Virus record (IMG/VR): IMGVR_UViG_3300006805_000010
Span: 1 to 40,861 of that record
Source of the DNA: a virus
Direction: 5' to 3' (one strand)
DNA: 40,861 nt
Shown in pieces: positions 29,538 through 40,861 of this stretch (within the stretch, counting starts at the first letter, position 1; every line of letters starts with the position of its first letter). The notes beneath the pieces were generated by a model. That model had not been told where the DNA came from. It did no database searches and saw only the letters and a list, made by a program, of their open reading frames with translations. Position numbers and translations under genes: made by a program.

Positions 29538-30209
29538 TTATTTCCCTGCTTTAGCTTTTGCAGCAGCAAGTCTGGCTTCAGCCAGTTCTACTTCTAGCTC
29601 TTCAGGGGTCTTTTCTATTTTCATTGCACCTGCACTGTCAGCAGCCTTACCTGCTTCACTCACTGCAGAAATGAACTCTTCAGGGTCTTCAGCTTGAGGT
29701 GCAATTGCAGCAGTGGTCGTTTTTTCAACAGTCGCACCAGTTTTGTTTTCAAACACTACTGGCTCTAATTTTTTAACAGTTTTACTGAATGAAATTATGT
29801 TGTTGAAAACTTTTTGACCATCTTTACTCTCATTCTGCTCAACCATCACATCAACTTGCTGTCCAATAATGGACTCTGGGTCAAATGTGGCAACCTCTTC
29901 TTTTGTGAGGTCACGGCCTTGAATCGCTTTTACAAGCTTCCCAAGCCAACTTCTGTTATTTAATGCAGGACGGCATCTTTTCCACAAAAACCTACCTCGT
30001 GTGGTTTCTGCGTCAGTGCCTTCCTTTTGTGGCATAGGTTTATCGTCTAATATCGCAAATTGATAATTTAAGACTTCTTCTTCCTTACCTTGAAATTGGT
30101 TAAATTGGGTCACTTCATTGACATCAACGGCCAAGACTGTATATCTGTCCATAGGCACTGGGTCAAAATCACCACCCGTTTTTATTTCAATTTTTTTACC
30201 ATTTAGCAT
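29538..30209 (-). CDS. Probable ssDNA-binding / recombination accessory protein, 223 aa
   Basis: The N-terminal 140 residues form a beta-rich domain (YTVLAVDVNEVTQFNQFQGK; NYQFAILDD; IGQQVDVMVEQNESKDGQKV) with the strand order of OB-fold proteins of the DUF669 type that phages use as single-strand binding proteins. Residues 155-223 are an Ala/Glu/Lys-rich flexible tail, which lacks the usual acidic tip (it ends AKAKAGK). It is the second gene of the early operon, preceded by the regulator with one-base overlap and a GGGGGTGAG Shine-Dalgarno. The assignment is by pattern and context only. Confidence 0.55.
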   Translation of the reverse strand: MLNGKKIEIKTGGDFDPVPMDRYTVLAVDVNEVTQFNQFQGKEEEVLNYQFAILDDKPMPQKEGTDAETTRGRFLWKRCRPALNNRSWLGKLVKAIQGRDLTKEEVATFDPESIIGQQVDVMVEQNESKDGQKVFNNIISFSKTVKKLEPVVFENKTGATVEKTTTAAIAPQAEDPEEFISAVSEAGKAADSAGAMKIEKTPEELEVELAEARLAAAKAKAGK

Positions 30210-30481
30210 TATTCGCTCACCCCCTTCTCGCTTCCCGCAATTGGTTCACTTTCTGGTGAAGTTGAAATTGGGGATTTGCTCTTTTGTATTTCGGATTGTT
30301 TTTCAATCCAACGCTCAAGTTCATTGCGTCTAATTCTTGGGGTACGGTCAGAAAAATACACGACAGGGAGGGGATTTTCTTTATTGTCCATATACTCATA
30401 AATGGTTTGCCTGGAAACTCTCAAAAATTCTGCAACCTCTTCAATGAGTAAAAATTCTTTTTCTTGTTTGTCTAAAGCCAT
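30209..30481 (-). CDS. HTH (excisionase/MerR-like) regulator, 90 aa
   Basis: A helix-turn-helix and wing of the HTH_17/excisionase family: FLLIEEVAEFLRVSRQTIYEYM is helix 1, turn and recognition helix (residues 10-30), followed by the wing VVYFSDRTPRIRRNELERWI. The last 25 residues are Ser/Pro/Glu-rich. It is the first gene of the leftward early operon and its promoter faces the replication-gene promoter, so it probably binds the inverted repeats between them. The ATG lies five bases after the -10 box (leaderless). No integrase is present, so it is a regulator, not an excisionase. Confidence 0.85.
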   Translation of the reverse strand: MALDKQEKEFLLIEEVAEFLRVSRQTIYEYMDNKENPLPVVYFSDRTPRIRRNELERWIEKQSEIQKSKSPISTSPESEPIAGSEKGVSE

Positions 30482-30516: not shown

Positions 30517-30533
30517 GACCCAGTATGCACCAG

Positions 30534-30562
30534 TTGACATTATTTGTCAATCTCTTTATAGT
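30534..30562 (+). promoter_or_regulatory. Rightward promoter for the replication genes with palindromic operator
   Basis: TTGACA (30534-30539), a 17-base spacer and TATAGT (30557-30562) form a near-consensus promoter. TTGACA-TTATT-TGTCAA (30534-30550) is a perfect inverted repeat that contains the -35 box. The same half-site TGTCAA occurs at 30511, the -35 of the leftward promoter, so one regulator could control both directions. Confidence 0.75.
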
Positions 30563-30572
30563 GAGAGTCAAG

Positions 30573-30887
30573 ATGCTCAACCCTTACAAAAAGAAGCACA
30601 TGAAGTTTTCTACCCCTCTTCAGAAGGTGACCAAAAAGCCTGACATATTGAAGGTGTATGAGCTGCTTTGCGAATCCTCTCGCTTAAAGCGTTCAGGCCG
30701 TGCAACAATAACTCTCTGCCCTTTGCACGGTGACCGCAAACCCTCTTTTGCGATGTATGAGGACAACGACACGTTTTATTGTTTTTCCTGTGCTGAGAAG
30801 GGGGACAGTTTCGACCTTATTCAAAAGATATTAGGCACTGACTTTGCGGGGGCAAAAGCCTGGGCACAGGACAATTATTTATTATGA
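30573..30887 (+). CDS. CHC2 zinc-finger primase domain protein, 104 aa
   Basis: This is the zinc-binding domain of a DnaG-type primase encoded as a separate gene. The motif is TLCPLHGDRKPSF...FYCFSCAEKGD, with Cys49, His52, Cys70 and Cys73, and then helix FDLIQKILGTDF. I use the ATG at 30573, ten bases after the -10 box; the longer frame from 30525 would start upstream of the promoter. The stop overlaps the following TOPRIM-ATPase gene (ATGA), so the two halves of the primase-helicase are translated together. The domain would select the template start site for primer synthesis. Confidence 0.88.
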   Translation: MLNPYKKKHMKFSTPLQKVTKKPDILKVYELLCESSRLKRSGRATITLCPLHGDRKPSFAMYEDNDTFYCFSCAEKGDSFDLIQKILGTDFAGAKAWAQDNYLL

Positions 30888-32491
30888 AACCAGAAGAATA
30901 CTTTGCAAACCACACTCTAAACCCTGATTTCCTGGCAAAGGAATTTGGTATTACTTGGGATGAGAAGCAAATTGTCATTCCTATTTACAATGAAAAAGGG
31001 GAGCGTTCTTTTGACCGTTACCGCCATTTAGAGGGCAATGTAAAATTCACTTCAGAAAAAGGCAGCCACCCAACGCTTTATCCATTGCACCGTATCGGGA
31101 AATTTAAGAATTTGATTCTGTGCGAGGGTGAGCCAGATTGTTTAAGATTGTGGCAAGAAAAAATCCCTGCAGTCACGGGCACTGGTGGTGTCACCACTTT
31201 TAATTCCAAGCTTGCCGAACCTTTGAGGGATAAAAACATTTTTCTGGTTTTGGACAATGATGCTGCAGGGCAAAATGAAATCAATAAGTACATTGAGGTT
31301 TTAACAGCAGTAAACGCAACGGTCAAAATTATTGAGCTTCCCCATGAATTTAAGGATGTGTCTGAGTATTTCACTGCAGGCCATACAAAAGAAGATTTCA
31401 CAAAGTTGGCTTCAAATGCCCTGGATTATGATGTGTGGCTTGAAAGAAACGAGCCTGAAACATTTGCTTTGGAGACTGCAGCAGAGATTGTTGCTTTAGA
31501 CATTCCACCTGAACAATGGTTAGTGAATCGTATTCTTCCCGTTGAAGGGTTTGCGTTCTTTGTTGGGGCTGAAGCAACTGCAAAAACATTTGATGCTCTT
31601 ACTATTGCCCATGCTGTCGCAACAGGCACGCCCTGGTTGGACACTTTTGAAGTCCCTTCAAAAGGTAGGGTGCTTATTATTGACAAAGAAAACACAAAAA
31701 GGCGTATACATTCCCGTATGAAAGGACTGGGCATTGATAGTCCTGACATTTTTAGAGTCAGCTACCCACATTATTTTGAAGTAAACGACCCAGAACAAAC
31801 CAGTGGTTTTTCCCTTTTTGCACAAAGTCTTTCAAGAAAAGTTAAAAAGCTTAACATCAAACTTCTTATTATTGATTCTTTTACTGATGTTTTGGTGGGT
31901 AATGAAAATGACCGAGGCGATGTGCAGGGTTTCTTTGATGCAATGCGACAACTTTTCCCAGGCATTTCAATAATGGTGCTTCACCACGCTTCAAAACCTG
32001 CACAGGGAGTGATGCGAAGTAAGTCACAAATGGCTCGTGGTTCAACAAACATTATGGCTCAGACCTACAGTGCATTTCACATTGAGGCAGTGCCAAAAAG
32101 TAAAACCGAATTTATATTGGAGCAAACAAAAGCGGGTGACTCTGAAAAGCTTAATCCATTTTTGACTGAGCTTTTTGTGTTGCCTGACCCAGAAGACCCC
32201 CAGGGAACAGTTGTTGCAGGCATCAACTATCGGGGCGAGGTTATTACTGAAGACATGAAAATTGCAGAAGCTGTTTCAGTTATTGAAGAAGCATTTAAGG
32301 TGAAAAACCTTATACCACGCCAAGAGTTATTGGACATTTGCCAGGCTGAAGGGATTTCACAAAGGACTGCACTTCGTGCCATTAAGCAGTTGTCAGAAAA
32401 CAACAAAATTGATTCAATCCCAGACCCTGCAAATAAAAGTAAACGCAATTATATGTGGATGGCAGAGATAGAAACGGAGGATTATGACTAG
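30884..32491 (+). CDS. TOPRIM primase / RepA-like ATPase (helicase) fusion, 535 aa
   Basis: A TOPRIM domain spans about 70-170, with NLILCEGEPD (Glu81) and FLVLDNDAAGQNE (Asp124, Asp126). Then follows a RecA-fold ATPase like RepA/AAA_25 (about 205-440): Walker A-like GAEATAKT at 228-235, in which the usual second Gly is Ala, and Walker B KLLIIDSFTD. The C-terminal 80 residues contain a winged-helix-like segment (LIPRQELLDICQAEGISQRT). Together with the CHC2 gene upstream it makes a complete primase-helicase for replication. Five copies of an iteron start 10 bases after its stop, so it may also be the initiator. No DNA polymerase is encoded here, so it must use the host's. Confidence 0.85.
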   Translation: MKPEEYFANHTLNPDFLAKEFGITWDEKQIVIPIYNEKGERSFDRYRHLEGNVKFTSEKGSHPTLYPLHRIGKFKNLILCEGEPDCLRLWQEKIPAVTGTGGVTTFNSKLAEPLRDKNIFLVLDNDAAGQNEINKYIEVLTAVNATVKIIELPHEFKDVSEYFTAGHTKEDFTKLASNALDYDVWLERNEPETFALETAAEIVALDIPPEQWLVNRILPVEGFAFFVGAEATAKTFDALTIAHAVATGTPWLDTFEVPSKGRVLIIDKENTKRRIHSRMKGLGIDSPDIFRVSYPHYFEVNDPEQTSGFSLFAQSLSRKVKKLNIKLLIIDSFTDVLVGNENDRGDVQGFFDAMRQLFPGISIMVLHHASKPAQGVMRSKSQMARGSTNIMAQTYSAFHIEAVPKSKTEFILEQTKAGDSEKLNPFLTELFVLPDPEDPQGTVVAGINYRGEVITEDMKIAEAVSVIEEAFKVKNLIPRQELLDICQAEGISQRTALRAIKQLSENNKIDSIPDPANKSKRNYMWMAEIETEDYD

Positions 32492-32500
32492 CCTCAAAAA

Positions 32501-32702
32501 ACCTGTGCCAAGTGTTTTGATTTTTCAGACCCCTTGGCACGGGTTTTTGAAGAACCTGTGCCAAACCTGTGCCAACCCTTGGCACGGGTTTTTAGCCTCA
32601 TTTTTGATAACCTGTGCCAAAGTCGTGCCAAACCAACTCACAAAAAACAACCAACCTGTGCCAAGTGCCAAACCTTATATAAGGTTGGCACATGGCATGG
32701 GT
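32501..32702 (+). repeat. Iteron cluster, candidate replication origin
   Basis: Five perfect copies of ACCTGTGCCAA (starts 32501, 32554, 32565, 32610, 32654), two inverted copies TTGGCACGGGT (32534, 32579), and degenerate copies at 32622, 32665, 32685 and 32693. Copies at 32554 and 32565 abut exactly (11-bp period, one DNA turn). At 32665-32691 two inverted half-sites flank a perfect 16-bp palindrome (AACCTTATATAAGGTT) with a single unpaired A. The stretch lies between the primase-helicase gene and the 32719 gene. Iterons with an A/T-rich palindromic core fit a replication origin or a multi-site operator. Confidence 0.75.
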
Positions 32703-32718
32703 TTTGTAGAAAATTTTT

Positions 32719-33162
32719 ATGAATAAAGAAAACCTTGAAGAAATTAAGAAACTCCTTTCTTTTTTGAAAAGGGGAAATCTTGTCTGGCCTAATTCCAGTA
32801 GTGTGCAGAAAGCAAAAATGCTCGACAAATGCCAATGGATTTTTGACAGGCTTGTAGAACTTGGGTGTAAGCCTGGCTTTGGGGAAGGCTGCCTGATGTA
32901 TGGCAAAGAGTTTACGGACACTTTGGAAAGGGAAAACAAACCTGAACCTAAGTTTACTCAAAACAATACGGTCATGGATGCACAAAGGGTGTTTGGAGTG
33001 CGTGCAACCAGGGCAACGTATGGGGAAATTGAGGCTGCAAAAATGGCAGAGGAAATGGGTGCACTGGTGTATGAGATTGAAGGCTACGAAAAAGGAGAAG
33101 ACGGGGCATTTCATCCAAAGTTGAAGGTATTGACGTATAAAGCTGATACCAAACGTGCCTAG
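32719..33162 (+). CDS. Hypothetical protein, 147 aa
   Basis: A helical basic N-terminus (NKENLEEIKKLLSFLKRGNL) is followed by an alpha/beta part with Cys at 38, 50 and 58 and a charged C-terminus. Its ATG follows the iteron cluster; TTGGCA (32685) and TAGAAA (32707) could be its promoter, with six bases before the ATG, but the match is weak. It may relate to replication control because of position. Family not recognised. Confidence 0.65.
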   Translation: MNKENLEEIKKLLSFLKRGNLVWPNSSSVQKAKMLDKCQWIFDRLVELGCKPGFGEGCLMYGKEFTDTLERENKPEPKFTQNNTVMDAQRVFGVRATRATYGEIEAAKMAEEMGALVYEIEGYEKGEDGAFHPKLKVLTYKADTKRA

Positions 33163-33393: not shown

Positions 33394-33633
33394 ATGGAAG
33401 ACAATTTTTTAACATCAAAAGAGGTTTGTGAAAAATATAAGATTGCACAACAGACAATTCTTAATTGGAGGCGTGGATATTATTTTTCCAATTATAAAAG
33501 GATTTATTATTTACCTGACCACCAGGGTGTGCCTCATGTTTTTGATAAGCGAATCAGAATGTGTAAATACGACCCGATTAAAGTGGCTGTGTGGGTGAAT
33601 AAAGTGATGAAAAGAAGGGAGGGCGAATTATGA
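33394..33633 (+). CDS. HTH DNA-binding protein, 79 aa
   Basis: An N-terminal helix-turn-helix (FLTSKEVCEKYKIAQQTILNWRR, about residues 5-27) followed by a wing-like segment with basic residues (YYFSNYKRIYYLPDHQGVPH) and a basic C-terminus (WVNKVMKRREGEL). This is the MerR/excisionase-like type, similar in plan to the 30481 regulator. Cotranscribed with GroES behind a promoter with a palindromic operator, it is probably an autoregulator. Its stop overlaps the GroES ATG (ATGA). Confidence 0.78.
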   Translation: MEDNFLTSKEVCEKYKIAQQTILNWRRGYYFSNYKRIYYLPDHQGVPHVFDKRIRMCKYDPIKVAVWVNKVMKRREGEL

Positions 33634-33899
33634 CAACTGAGCTTATTGCAAGTAAAAAAGTAGTGATTTGTGTGAACCCAAAGATGCAAAAAAGTAAGTC
33701 TGGTTTGGATTTACCAACTGCTGAAAACAAGCCTGAAACAGGTGAAGTTATTGTTATTGGTGAAGGGCAAAAACCATTTGATTTTAAGGTAGGCGACACA
33801 ATTGTTTACCGTAAATATACTGAGAACAAAATTTTTATTGGTGGGACTGAATACAATTTTGTGAGGTTTCTTGATATTTTAGGTGCTGTTAAAAAATAA
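33630..33899 (+). CDS. groES: GroES-like co-chaperonin (Cpn10), 89 aa
   Basis: GroES forms the heptameric lid of the GroEL folding chamber. Conserved parts are the mobile loop ending in SGLDLPTAENKP (GGIVLP in bacterial GroES; the GroEL-gripping tripeptide is LDL here), the beta-barrel segment TGEVIVIGEG, VGDTIVYRKY, and the C-terminal signature GGTEYNFVRFLDILGAV (E. coli: dgEevLimsesDILAiV). Its length is slightly below the 94-97 of cellular GroES. It has a good Shine-Dalgarno (GGGAGGGCG) and ATGA overlap to the HTH gene. The GroEL gene is 1.4 kb downstream, separated by small genes and a secreted protein. Confidence 0.88.
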   Translation: MTTELIASKKVVICVNPKMQKSKSGLDLPTAENKPETGEVIVIGEGQKPFDFKVGDTIVYRKYTENKIFIGGTEYNFVRFLDILGAVKK

Positions 33900-35248: not shown

Positions 35249-35327
35249 ATAGAGAATCCACTTGCAATTTTCTTCATCATTGTTTAGTCTGTATCTATAC
35301 AAAATAAGTGTGTCACCAGGCACATTT

Positions 35328-35343
35328 TAGAGTTCTCAAGAAC
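35328..35343 (+). promoter_or_regulatory. Short inverted repeat in the GroEL leader
   Basis: GTTCT and AGAAC around a CA loop lie at about 35331-35342, preceded by GA as in the other short leader hairpins (pattern GAG-stem-loop-stem-CC), and end just before the ATG at 35350. A candidate promoter is unclear: TATCTATAC occurs near 35292 without a well-spaced -35. Confidence 0.35.
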
Positions 35344-35349
35344 CGTATT

Positions 35350-37014
35350 ATGAAAGATAACACCGAAAACAAGACCAAATCTCCATTGCCAGAGCGATAC
35401 ATGGTTTTTTCTGAAGAAGCCAGACTCAAGCTCATTGAAGGCGTAAAACTCACTTATGATGCTGTTTGCTCTACACTGTCACCAAAAGGTCGCAATGTTG
35501 CGGTTGCACGTCAATACGGTGCACCAATTATTGTTCACGATGGGGTAACTGTTGCTCGTGAAGTGAAGCACCCTGACCCATTTGTGCAAATGGGAATTAA
35601 CCTTGTTAGGGAAGCAGCTCAGAAAACAAATGATGAAGCAGGCGATGGTACAACAACTTCAACACTTATTGCTTATGAACTTGCCAAGGGTGGGTTTGAT
35701 TTAATCACAAACAAAAAAGTAAACCCAATGATTTTAAGAACGCAACTTTATGCTGCACTTGAGGACATTAAGCCATACCTCAAAAAATTGTCTAAGCCTG
35801 CAAAGACACAAAAGGATTTGGAACGTGTTGCCACAATCAGTTCTGCCGACCCTGTGATTGGACAAATGGTTGGTGAAGCTGTTTACAAAGTTGGTGTTGA
35901 TGGGCTTGTTGCTGTTGAAGAGTCAGGCGGTTTTGATACTTACATCAAATACACCGAAGGCATGACAATAGACAAGGGTTTTTCTTCTCCATATTTTATG
36001 ACCAACCCTGATAGGCGTGAAGCTGTGGTGGACAAGCCAATTATTGCAATTGTTGATAAACCAATAAGCACACAACGTGAGCTTGTGCCTTTGGTTGAAT
36101 CAATGATTGCTGTATCTAAAAACATTGTGATAGTTGGGGAAGTGAAGGGTGACGCTTTGAGTATTCTTGTTACAAATAAAGCTCGTGGCAATATCAACGC
36201 TCTTGTTATTGACCCACCTGGATATGGTGACAACAGGCGTGACTACCTTGAAGACCTTGCAGTGCTTACTGGTGCAACTGTGTTTTCGCAAGAGCTTGGT
36301 ATGGATATGGAACAGTTCTCACAAACCTTTGACAAAGACTGGCTTGGTAAGGCTGATAAAGTAATTGCAACTAAAAAGACCACAATGTTTGTGCGTGGCA
36401 ATGGTAAGCCTAAAGCTATTAAGGCTCAAATTGACAAGATTAGAAAGCACCTTGCAAAGGCTGAATCACAAACTGAGCGTGAACGACTTGAAGAACGATT
36501 GGCTAAGTTCACAACAGGTGTGGCAGTTGTGCGAGTTGGAGCAAAGACTGAGATTGAAGCCCGTGAGAAGCTTGAGCGAGTGAAGGATGCAGTGGGTGCT
36601 GCAACTGCAGCTCTTGAAGAAGGATTTGTCCCAGGTTCAGGTGTGACATTTATGCACCTGGCTGAAGCAATTAAAGAAGATACGCCAGGAGCAAACCTTA
36701 TGCGATATGTGTTAGAGCAACCACTTAGGAAAGTCATGTTGAATTCAGGTGAAAATAATAAATTGAGGCTGTTTGGTCTTATTCCTTCAGCTATTGATAA
36801 TAAAGTTGAAGAGATTAAAGAGATGAGCGGTAACACAAAATCCATTGGTTACAATTCCCTTGAAGGGCGAATTGATAACATGGAGCGTGCAGGCATTATT
36901 GACCCAACAAAAGTTATTCGCCTTTGTTTGGAAAATGGCCTGGGAGTAGCAGCATCAATTCTCACAACTGACACACTTATTGACCTTGAAGATGAGCGTA
37001 AACAAATATACTAA
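35350..37014 (+). CDS. groEL: GroEL-like chaperonin (Cpn60), 554 aa
   Basis: An ATP-driven folding chamber. All three domains are visible. Equatorial: TLSPKGRNVAVA, GVTVAREV and the ATP motif EAGDGTTTSTLIA, corresponding to E. coli Asp87. Apical: VEGM-like TEGMTIDKGFSSPYFMTNPD, and DALSILVTNKARGNINALVI. Intermediate and equatorial return: RVKDAVGAATAALEEGFVPGSG, with the Asp equivalent to E. coli Asp398 required for hydrolysis. I use the ATG at 35350. The C-terminus ends ERKQIY and lacks the Gly-Gly-Met tail of bacterial GroEL. It is shorter in similarity than host-like copies, suggesting an old viral lineage. Likely folds the capsid or tail proteins with the phage GroES. Confidence 0.93.
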   Translation: MKDNTENKTKSPLPERYMVFSEEARLKLIEGVKLTYDAVCSTLSPKGRNVAVARQYGAPIIVHDGVTVAREVKHPDPFVQMGINLVREAAQKTNDEAGDGTTTSTLIAYELAKGGFDLITNKKVNPMILRTQLYAALEDIKPYLKKLSKPAKTQKDLERVATISSADPVIGQMVGEAVYKVGVDGLVAVEESGGFDTYIKYTEGMTIDKGFSSPYFMTNPDRREAVVDKPIIAIVDKPISTQRELVPLVESMIAVSKNIVIVGEVKGDALSILVTNKARGNINALVIDPPGYGDNRRDYLEDLAVLTGATVFSQELGMDMEQFSQTFDKDWLGKADKVIATKKTTMFVRGNGKPKAIKAQIDKIRKHLAKAESQTERERLEERLAKFTTGVAVVRVGAKTEIEAREKLERVKDAVGAATAALEEGFVPGSGVTFMHLAEAIKEDTPGANLMRYVLEQPLRKVMLNSGENNKLRLFGLIPSAIDNKVEEIKEMSGNTKSIGYNSLEGRIDNMERAGIIDPTKVIRLCLENGLGVAASILTTDTLIDLEDERKQIY

Positions 37015-37813: not shown

Positions 37814-38178
37814 TGTACACCTGGGACATAACACCGATTGGAGCACAACGCTTAAACCGTTTTGACCAGTGGAAGAAACGACCACGAGTGCTTAGGTATT
37901 TTGAATTTCGGGATGCAATTGCAAAGTTTATTGAAGATACGCCAATAAAAGAAGCCACCCACATTGAGGTTAATTTTCACATTCCAATGCCAAGAAGTTG
38001 GAGTAAAAAGAAGAAGGCTTTACTTTGTGACACACCACATCAGCAAAAGCCCGATATTGATAATTTAGTAAAAGCGTTGCTTGATTCAATTCACCGAGGT
38101 GGGGATGATTCAAAGGTTTATTCAATAATAGCTCGCAAATACTGGTCAATAGAGGGTAAGATTAGAATGACAATATGA
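37810..38178 (+). CDS. rusA: RusA-type Holliday-junction resolvase, 122 aa
   Basis: RusA cleaves four-way DNA junctions, here to tidy branched replication DNA before packaging. The signature is KPDIDNLVKALLDS (Asp82, Asp84 and Lys88), then GGDDSKVYSI (Asp99/Asp100), the acidic residues and lysine that bind metal. The N-terminal strand-rich half (WDITPIGAQRLNRF; IEVNFHIPMPRSW) matches the family. Length is typical (RusA of E. coli is 120). Its ATG overlaps the previous stop and its stop overlaps the terminase gene. Confidence 0.9.
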   Translation: MMYTWDITPIGAQRLNRFDQWKKRPRVLRYFEFRDAIAKFIEDTPIKEATHIEVNFHIPMPRSWSKKKKALLCDTPHQQKPDIDNLVKALLDSIHRGGDDSKVYSIIARKYWSIEGKIRMTI

Positions 38179-38690
38179 TAAATAAAACATTTGAAGTTGA
38201 AGCCATAAGATTTAAGGCAGGGCGACCCACAAAATATACTGACCGTGAGTCACCTAAACAATTGCGTGAGTACCTTCGAGAATGTGCTAATGCAAAAAAA
38301 ACCCCGTTCATTGAAGAGTTTGCACTTAAAATTGGAGTTGATGAACGCACTGCAAAAGCATGGGTTGGCAAGCATACTAAATTTGAAAATGAGTACAACA
38401 AGCTTTTGACAATGCAGAAGTTTGACCTTAAAAGGCGTGCTTTAAGTGGGGAGTATGTGCCAAAGATTGCAGAGCTGCTTCTTAGTGCAGAGCACGATGT
38501 TGTTATGCGAATTAAAAAGGAGGTTGGAAACTTGGATGGTAAACCACTTCAGGTTGAGCAAACATTGTCGCCTTCGCAAATAAAAGAATACTCAGAAACC
38601 ATTACTGGCATTTTTGAAAAGATTTATAGTGGCGACAACAGTGGTGGGGGAGCAACCCCAACAACACCCACAAAAGGACATGGAGAGTGA
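38175..38690 (+). CDS. terS: Terminase small subunit, 171 aa
   Basis: The DNA-recognition subunit that marks viral DNA for packaging. A basic N-terminal segment (AIRFKAGRPTKYTDRESPKQL) is followed by a helix-turn-helix (FIEEFALKIGVDERTAKAWVG, about residues 45-70), a helical oligomerisation core (FENEYNKLLTMQKFDLKRRA; VVMRIKKEVGN) and a flexible Gly/Thr/Pro-rich end. It lies immediately before the large subunit and overlaps it by 11 bases. The GRPTKYT start is common in small terminases. Confidence 0.8.
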   Translation: MINKTFEVEAIRFKAGRPTKYTDRESPKQLREYLRECANAKKTPFIEEFALKIGVDERTAKAWVGKHTKFENEYNKLLTMQKFDLKRRALSGEYVPKIAELLLSAEHDVVMRIKKEVGNLDGKPLQVEQTLSPSQIKEYSETITGIFEKIYSGDNSGGGATPTTPTKGHGE

Positions 38691-40320
38691 ATCAATCATT
38701 AAAACTTCTGATGGCATTAACCCATTAGCTTTTATTCATAACCACAACATTGTTAATGAGAACGGTTCACCTTTGGAGTTCAAAAACCACAAATTCCTAC
38801 TTCGCCCAATGGCTGATATGTCACCAGAGCAAGTGATTATGAAACCTTCCCAGGTTGGTTGGACTGTGCTTGTAGGTATCAACAAATCTCTTTGGTTGGC
38901 AAAATACATGAAGGCAAATGTGATTTATACCATGCCTTCACGCACTGCAATTAAAGACTTTGTTTCCCCAAAGGTTGACCCAATTATTATGCAAAATCCT
39001 GTTTACCAGGAATGGATGGGTAAAACTGATTCTTCAGCTCTTAAAGCAGTAGGTGACCGCTTTATTTATTTTCGTGGAAGTTGGGAAGAGACTGCAGCTA
39101 TTTCAATTTCAGGGGACGTGCTTATTAACGATGAGGCAGACCGCTCAAACCAAAAGGTGCTTGAAACATACCGCACACGATTGGATGCTTCACGGGCATT
39201 GCGACCAGACTTAGGATTTGTGTGGCAATGGAGCAATCCTTCAATCCCAGGATACGGTGTTGATGAAATGTGGCAAAAGTCAGACAAGAAACATTGGTTT
39301 GTGAAATGCCCGCATTGTAATTATGAATACTACCTCAAGTTTCCTGACAACATTGATTTTGAAAGGGAAATATACATTTGTGCAAAGTGCAAAAGGTATT
39401 TATCTGATGAAGCCAGGCGTGATGGTAGGTGGGTTGTTAAAAACAGTAAATCAAACATTTCAGGTTATTGGCTCAGTCAGTTGGTTGTGCCCTGGATTAC
39501 TGCTGCAGATATTATTGCCAAATCAAAGAAGGATTTATCAATTTTTCACAACTTCTGCCTTGGGCTTCCTTATATTTCAAAAGACCAGAGTGTGAGCAGA
39601 AGCACAATTTTGAATTGTATCGTTCCAACTGTAAATGCACGCATAGGTGTTGTGATGGGTGTGGATAATGGAATTACAAAGACAGTGGTTATTGGAAATG
39701 TGCATGGCATATTTAAGGTTTATGAAACAGACTCCTGGGAAGAGATTGAACAGGACTTTTTGAGGTATCAGGCAACAATGGTGATTGATGCAAACCCGTA
39801 CCCAGTCATGCCTAAAAAGCTTGCCCAAAAGTACCCAGGTAAAGTGTTTGTTCATTATTTTGTTCAGGAACAAAAAGACCTTCAAGTTATCAAGTGGGGA
39901 ACTTCTGACAGGCGAAATGTTGTTGTTTCAGACCGCACCAAAATAATTGATATGGTTGTTGCAGAGCTTATCGGGCAAGACATTTTGTTTAATATGAGCC
40001 TCACCGATTTGGAGCAATATATTTACGATTGGTCACAAATGTTTCGCACTGTTGAGACAAATAATCAAGGGATGCAAAAGTCTGTTTGGCGAACTATTGA
40101 AGGCAGGCGTGACCATTTTGTGTTTGCAACTGTGTATTGGAGAATTGCACTTGAAAAGGTCTTTTCAACAGGTGGGGTTGTAAGAACGCCACGAAAGAAG
40201 CAAAATGGTAGTATTACTCAAGGCATTATGGTAAGTCCTGAAGGCACTGTCCCCGCCATTGATGTTAAAAAAGTTGCTGAAAGGGGGCTAAGAAAGAAAA
40301 AATCATGGAAGACCCGATGA
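38680..40320 (+). CDS. terL: Terminase large subunit, lambda GpA-type, 546 aa
   Basis: The packaging ATPase-nuclease. The start is the ATG at 38680 (MESESIIKTSDG), near the small-subunit stop; the upstream frame from 38614 lies inside that gene. The ATPase has the deviant Walker A KPSQVGWT (55-62), as in lambda gpA (KSARVGYS), with the lysine at the first position and no GKT, and Walker B VLINDEADR (Asp151/Glu152). A zinc ribbon follows (Cys210, Cys213, Cys234, Cys237), typical of GpA. The nuclease domain then has VVMGVDNG and MVIDANPYPVMP. It is shorter than lambda gpA (641). This type often packages at a defined site, but I cannot locate one. Confidence 0.92.
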   Translation: MESESIIKTSDGINPLAFIHNHNIVNENGSPLEFKNHKFLLRPMADMSPEQVIMKPSQVGWTVLVGINKSLWLAKYMKANVIYTMPSRTAIKDFVSPKVDPIIMQNPVYQEWMGKTDSSALKAVGDRFIYFRGSWEETAAISISGDVLINDEADRSNQKVLETYRTRLDASRALRPDLGFVWQWSNPSIPGYGVDEMWQKSDKKHWFVKCPHCNYEYYLKFPDNIDFEREIYICAKCKRYLSDEARRDGRWVVKNSKSNISGYWLSQLVVPWITAADIIAKSKKDLSIFHNFCLGLPYISKDQSVSRSTILNCIVPTVNARIGVVMGVDNGITKTVVIGNVHGIFKVYETDSWEEIEQDFLRYQATMVIDANPYPVMPKKLAQKYPGKVFVHYFVQEQKDLQVIKWGTSDRRNVVVSDRTKIIDMVVAELIGQDILFNMSLTDLEQYIYDWSQMFRTVETNNQGMQKSVWRTIEGRRDHFVFATVYWRIALEKVFSTGGVVRTPRKKQNGSITQGIMVSPEGTVPAIDVKKVAERGLRKKKSWKTR

Positions 40321-40587: not shown

Positions 40588-40861
40588 ATGAAAATAAACC
40601 AACAAACCACTGCTGATGATTTAGAGCGAAAAACAGGGCTTATTGATACGGGTGCTTCTGGTGAAGATGAGCCATTAGCATTGGGGATTAGTGATGAAGC
40701 GGTACTTAGAATTATTGGAAAACAAGTTGAAGAAGGTGAGGCTTACTGGAACACAGAATTGAACCTTGATGAAGTCAGGTTGACCTCAGAAAAATACTAC
40801 ATTGGTGACACTTACAAAGAAGAGGACTTGTACGATTTTCAAATTCCTTATAAAAACAATC
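40588..40861 (+). CDS. Portal protein, N-terminal part (continues at base 1)
   Basis: ATG AAA ATA AAC at 40588 opens the portal frame, which runs to the end of the window and continues through the terminal overlap into position 1. The 57 N-terminal residues missing from the frame at base 21 are encoded here (MKINQQTTADDLERKTGLID...). The full protein is 709 residues. A TAGGAT box (40576-40581) six bases before the ATG fits the leaderless spacing, but lacks a -35. Confidence 0.9.
   Translation, partial: MKINQQTTADDLERKTGLIDTGASGEDEPLALGISDEAVLRIIGKQVEEGEAYWNTELNLDEVRLTSEKYYIGDTYKEEDLYDFQIPYKNN
40739..40861. repeat. Terminal direct repeat, right copy
   Basis: Identical to 1-123 (see left copy). 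Treat the two as one stretch in the 40,738-bp circle. Confidence 0.95.

Follow-up and report, generated by a model that had tools for sequence, protein, structure and literature searches.

A bidirectional iteron array directly 3′ of a Toprim–AAA_25 primase-helicase gene as a probable phage replication origin

In the rep-ori regions of SaPI and PICI elements, the gene for an initiator helicase, sometimes accompanied by a primase, is followed at once by an iteron origin. The C-terminal domain of SaPI Rep recognises iterons located directly downstream of its own gene (PMC7581432), and a PICI pri-ori region sustains plasmid replication (PMC6092414). In SCCmec, the helicase gene is followed by short repeats to which the isolated C-terminal domain of Cch2 binds, as established by binding and helicase assays (PMC7581432). 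SaPI and SCCmec origins arranged in this way have been tested experimentally (PMC7581432, PMC6092414), and in pRN1, too, the origin follows the primase-helicase gene on its 3′ side (PMC4234260). The mechanism class is one already known for SaPI and SCC elements.

The window considered here is an entire viral record of 40,861 bases with an exact 123-base direct repeat at both ends (positions 1–123 and 40739–40861), which is most likely the overlap of a circular assembly and is consistent with a complete circular genome. Within it, a gene encoding a separate, 120-aa zinc-ribbon primase subunit (CHC2/Zn_ribbon_DnaG; 30525–30887, plus strand; Pfam PF01807, E = 4e-17) overlaps by 4 bp the gene for a 535-aa primase-helicase with Toprim_2 and AAA_25 domains (30884–32491, plus strand; PF13481, E = 9e-27; PF13155, E = 1e-11). 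We refer to the latter as the 30884 protein and propose that it is the initiator. The next gene begins at 32719, and the 227-bp gap holds an array of 11 GTGCCA-type sites in both orientations (32501–32702), identified by site search and shuffles, which we propose to be a replication origin. As in SaPI and PICI elements, the array lies immediately 3′ of the initiator helicase gene; that gene ends at 32491 and the first site starts at 32501, in agreement with an earlier sequence-only reading that had placed the array beside a TOPRIM-ATPase gene.

Seven of the sites are on the plus strand and four on the minus strand. The five exact copies of ACCTGTGCCAA described in that reading were all located (32501, 32554, 32565, 32610 and 32654, all on the plus strand) and occur nowhere else in the record; two of them, at 32554 and 32565, do abut, with a spacing of 11 bp. 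The two inverted copies are present on the minus strand (32534–32544 and 32579–32589) but are not exact, each carrying one mismatch (ACCCGTGCCAA), and the four degenerate copies are CGTGCCA at 32624 and AGTGCCA at 32664 (plus strand) together with TGGCACA at 32686 and TGGCATG at 32693 (minus strand). The array is real and non-random: when the whole record was shuffled 100 times with dinucleotides preserved, the best 7-mer reached 3–5 copies, compared with 10 for GTGCCAA within 220 bp here, and TGCCAA, the best 6-mer of the helicase 3′ flank with 11 occurrences, was equalled in 0 of 1000 shuffles. The ten GTGCCAA sites (spacings 31, 22, 11, 12, 33, 11, 33, 7 and 22) fit a 10.8-bp period (R = 0.76, P = 0.015 versus random placement), which is suggestive of helical phasing in this phage's array only, phasing in the other arrays tested being not significant.

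Two site doublets, each 7 bp apart, are inverted around AACCTTATATAAGGTT (32671–32686), the only perfect spacerless palindrome of at least 16 bp in the record, to give a nested palindrome of 47 bp (32655–32701; −30 kcal/mol when folded as RNA). The 27-base near-palindrome noted previously exists but is not the whole structure, forming only the inside of this larger one. For comparison with the two iteron sets that flank an AT-rich region in SaPI/PICI-type origins, the inverted doublets here flank the 16-bp A/T-cored palindrome, but the remainder of the array is to one side, and just outside the array is the least stable 50-bp stretch in its vicinity (32702–32751; 99.7th percentile of the record in a nearest-neighbour stability scan), a candidate unwinding element. 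That the A/T-cored palindrome itself serves as a melting site is a guess.

Searches of the 30884 protein with Pfam and NCBIfam returned Toprim and AAA_25, and no D5_N, DUF927 or primase_Cterm. Its helicase domain matches the sequence of RSF1010 RepA in the PDB (1g8y, E = 2e-4), placing it in the same helicase family as that of an IncQ plasmid whose oriV is an iteron origin. The Walker A motif is unusual (GAEATAKT, with Ala replacing the usual Gly before Lys). AlphaFold2 gave the C-terminal 75 residues (about 456–531; 32249–32476, plus strand) a winged-helix topology (H-E-H-H-E-E) at a pLDDT near 80, the whole model being of low quality (mean 50.7); predicted in isolation, the domain gave three helices (pLDDT 70.5), and a Foldseek search returned winged helices among its matches, none of them significant. 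These models are no more than suggestive of a winged helix; with this winged-helix-like domain as the proposed reader of the iterons, the array could plausibly be bound by the 30884 protein.

The locus fits the plan of SaPI, SCCmec and pRN1 with a helicase of a different class, and by this analogy we infer a self-loading AAA_25 initiator with a 3′ origin. The helicases of SaPI and PICI are of the D5/DUF927 type, whereas that of this phage joins AAA_25 to a Toprim primase domain of the DnaG type; the host element here is a tailed phage, and the iteron word is not the same. SCCmec Cch2 likewise has its repeats just past the helicase gene, but there three AAGTG iterons accompany a D5-type helicase and a separate polymerase-primase, whereas here there are eleven sites and a Toprim fusion. 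The pRN1 protein is a primase-helicase with a C-terminal winged helix and an origin 3′ of its gene, but that origin has a stem-loop instead of iterons and the primase is archaeo-eukaryotic; P4 alpha shares the Toprim primase domain, and the helicases of both pRN1 and P4 differ in being SF3 (PMC4234260). Replication of RSF1010 is started by three separate polypeptides, RepA, RepB and RepC (PMC4234260, citing earlier work), whereas here Toprim, helicase and a predicted winged helix are combined in one protein and the proposed origin is 3′ of its gene. Among the ORFs scanned there was no family match to a separate RepC-type iteron-binding protein (RSF1010/IncQ) or to a Rep_3 (WH1–WH2) initiator of the kind found in the iteron plasmids P1 and pPS10.

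On this plan, the C-terminal winged helix of the Toprim–AAA_25 protein would bind the GTGCCA iterons, and hexamers would assemble on the oppositely oriented sites. DNA might then melt at the A/T palindrome or at the adjoining unstable stretch, after which the helicase would unwind the duplex and, judging from domain content, the Toprim domain together with the separate zinc-ribbon subunit would lay primers.

Related arrays were sought through the TGTGCCA word. In viral contigs the mixed-orientation pattern was found at no fewer than 119 loci, compared with 23 in a complete scan for the reversed word as a control. (The 61 matches to a spaced direct repeat were mostly chance or coding tandem repeats.) Many of the TGTGCCA loci among the matches listed belong to one peptide-deformylase-linked phage group. 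Dense arrays were found 3′ of primase-helicase genes of several classes: zinc-ribbon plus AAA_25 (L126; array about 23 bp downstream), Prim-Pol plus AAA_25 (L133; first site about 130 bp downstream), a P4-family primase (L015; 20 bp), a VapE-like protein (L110; 10 bp) and a D5_N protein (L111, 50 bp, and its relative L285). The L133 array contains TGTGCCA-gtatatattaaaatatatac-TGGCACA, in which two inverted sites enclose an A/T core as they do in this phage's array. A non-redundant set of 32 proteins next to dense arrays contained 4 with AAA_25, 3 with DUF5906, 2 with D5_N, 1 with VapE and 4 tyrosine integrases; a control set of 32 proteins, all more than 2.5 kb away, had one AAA_25 and one integrase. 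That TGTGCCA is common to unrelated replicases is partly a search effect, since the word was the query, and we do not claim that the word itself is special; a literature search for TGTGCCA together with iteron returned nothing. Nor can the word alone identify function, as TGTGCCA arrays are also present away from helicases, beside peptide deformylase genes and between mnmE and integrase genes.

In a large group of viral contigs (L184, L085, L093, L170 and relatives), 7–8 TGTGCCA sites occupy noncoding DNA 64 bp after the peptide deformylase gene, and these arrays are possibly origins too; L093 also carries, 6–10 kb away, genes for DNA polymerase A, a PriCT_1 protein and a UvrD-like helicase.

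Because loci found through the word are biased, we also picked genes by protein alone. The phage and plasmid homologues with 3′ arrays of other words were Wolbachia phage WO RepA, Rhizobium phage RHph_Y3_1, a gut phage contig and Microbacterium phage BirdInFrench; the words of these four protein-picked phage homologues (L186, L189, L190 and L339) are TTGCCA, GTTCCCA, GTCCCT and GTGTGA. The other phage and plasmid homologues examined, P4-type Vibrio phages included, had no array 3′ of the gene, as was true of most P4/VapE-type phages examined. The genome sample combined the 30 best AAA_25 domain matches from the class to which G001, the source genome of Pelomonas locus L262, belongs with the 5 best matches to the L126 protein from the class of G005. 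An array was scored when a 6-mer recurred within 350 bp past the stop codon at a shuffle P ≤ 0.01. A significant 3′ array followed 17 of the 34 sampled AAA_25 genes with a readable 3′ flank (L356–L389), a sample that is partly related (L383 and L384 are 88% identical, L365 and L372 48%). By comparison, arrays were detected in 1 of 32 5′ flanks, in 0 of 35 in-gene windows and, within the G001 class, after 0 of 29 genes for tyrosine integrases (Fisher exact P = 5e-6 versus integrases and 1.4e-5 versus the genes' own 5′ flanks). The array-less genes include two that are RadA-like by C-terminal sequence, and in a small sample of Bacteroidia AAA_25 genes an array was present in 1 of 5. The repeated word varies by element (GTCCGG, GTCACC, TGTACC, GTTTCC, GTTTAC, GTTGCG, AGTTGG and others). 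A pattern recognised post hoc, GT(0–2 bases)CC on one strand, fits 8 of 22 element iteron words, two of the eight (L365 and L378) coming from related proteins, versus 4% of random 6-mers, and may reflect a common mode of DNA reading.

The idea that the array is an origin is supported by the tested SaPI and SCCmec origins and by the recurrence of similarly built arrays, which directly follow primase-helicase genes of unrelated phages and half of the sampled AAA_25 genes. We therefore consider it likely that the array is the replication origin of this phage, situated directly 3′ of its own initiator's gene, and the candidate origin of the sequence-only reading is supported as the most likely function. 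Points against this reading are that no close relative was found that might show conservation (searches were by helicase and GroEL proteins in viral contigs, by helicase in genome contigs and by DNA similarity in phages), that about half of the sampled AAA_25 genes are array-less, as are most of the P4/VapE-type phages and 4 of 5 Bacteroidia genes, that TGTGCCA arrays also exist away from helicases, and that the Walker A motif is unusual. There is also no DnaA-box cluster: the 11 matches to TTWTNCACA in the record are at chance level and none is inside the array, which is tolerable since a self-loading helicase needs none. Cumulative GC skew, suggested earlier as a check, has a detrended minimum at 31,096; this would suit an origin close to the array, but a change in gene direction near 30.5 kb confounds the signal.

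An alternative is that the array, without acting as an origin, binds a regulator or forms an RNA hairpin and so controls, as operator or attenuator, the rightward operon that starts at 32719. The array does lie between two genes of the same direction, strong RNA hairpins are predicted, a promoter-like site (a consensus match only) is present at 32685–32714, and domain search places HTH_17 proteins close by (30209–30478 and 33394–33633). Eleven sites, however, are many for a simple operator, and the same 3′ placement is seen with helicase genes of unrelated elements whose downstream genes differ, and not with integrases; we regard regulation as the sole function as unlikely. Origin and operator are not mutually exclusive, as an initiator may also regulate.

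Still less probable is a recombination or packaging site, made up of integrase arm-type sites or recognised by the terminase. Arrays between mnmE and a tyrosine integrase, which in the Bacteroidales contigs L258, L275 and L294 may be att-site arms or an element origin, give the former some precedent, but the main ORFs of this genome gave no integrase match in domain searches, as had been noted before, and the terminase genes (38175–40320) are about 5.5 kb from the array. (L258 has an AAA_25 gene as well, about 4 kb beyond its array.) That the array codes for protein is scarcely credible: an 80-aa ORF (32484–32726) spans it and overlaps each neighbouring gene by 8 bp, like translationally coupled genes, but it has no family match, and the sites occur in all three frames and both orientations, which argues that they act as DNA, while the repeat word, having no stop codon in any frame, leaves frames open by default, so that the ORF is no evidence of a gene.

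The iterons had also been read as a sign of plasmid-like persistence, which might have explained the missing integrase. That suggestion is unsupported, as the domain searches of main ORFs revealed neither ParA/ParB nor a Rep_3-type initiator; known extrachromosomal mycobacterial prophages carry parABS (PMC7157519), and a divergent partition system is possible where the ORFs scanned gave no ParA/ParB or parABS match. Moreover, iterons are uninformative on lysogeny, since elements that integrate, SaPIs among them, also replicate from iteron origins.

More broadly, we think it somewhat more likely than not, with less confidence than for the origin itself, that AAA_25 helicases of the RSF1010 RepA type with a C-terminal winged helix are self-loading initiators that make up a large class across phages, plasmids and integrated elements, each reading its own short bidirectional iteron word directly 3′, such that helicase and origin form an exchangeable cassette in which wing and iteron evolve as lock and key. 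What appears to be new, on the basis of a limited open-access search that returned no description of a 3′ iteron origin for AAA_25 or Toprim helicases or for tailed phages, is that 3′ iteron arrays are frequent with AAA_25 helicases, Toprim fusions in tailed phages included, and that the word differs from element to element. Our observations suggest that this layout is more widespread, well beyond this phage. To our knowledge, few phage replication origins are known apart from those of model systems; should the rule hold, the origins of many uncultivated phages and mobile elements could be read from sequence, by seeking a repeated word in the 350 bp after an AAA_25 or D5-type helicase gene, and the many natural wing–iteron pairs would provide material for studying how winged helices select DNA words.

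The GroEL-bearing 40-kb phages from Manatee Spring (L192 and L193) have no annotated Toprim–AAA_25 gene. The 40-kb phage described here carries both a GroES-like gene (33630–33899) and a GroEL-like gene (35308–37014), the nearest phage GroEL being about 41% identical to its own.
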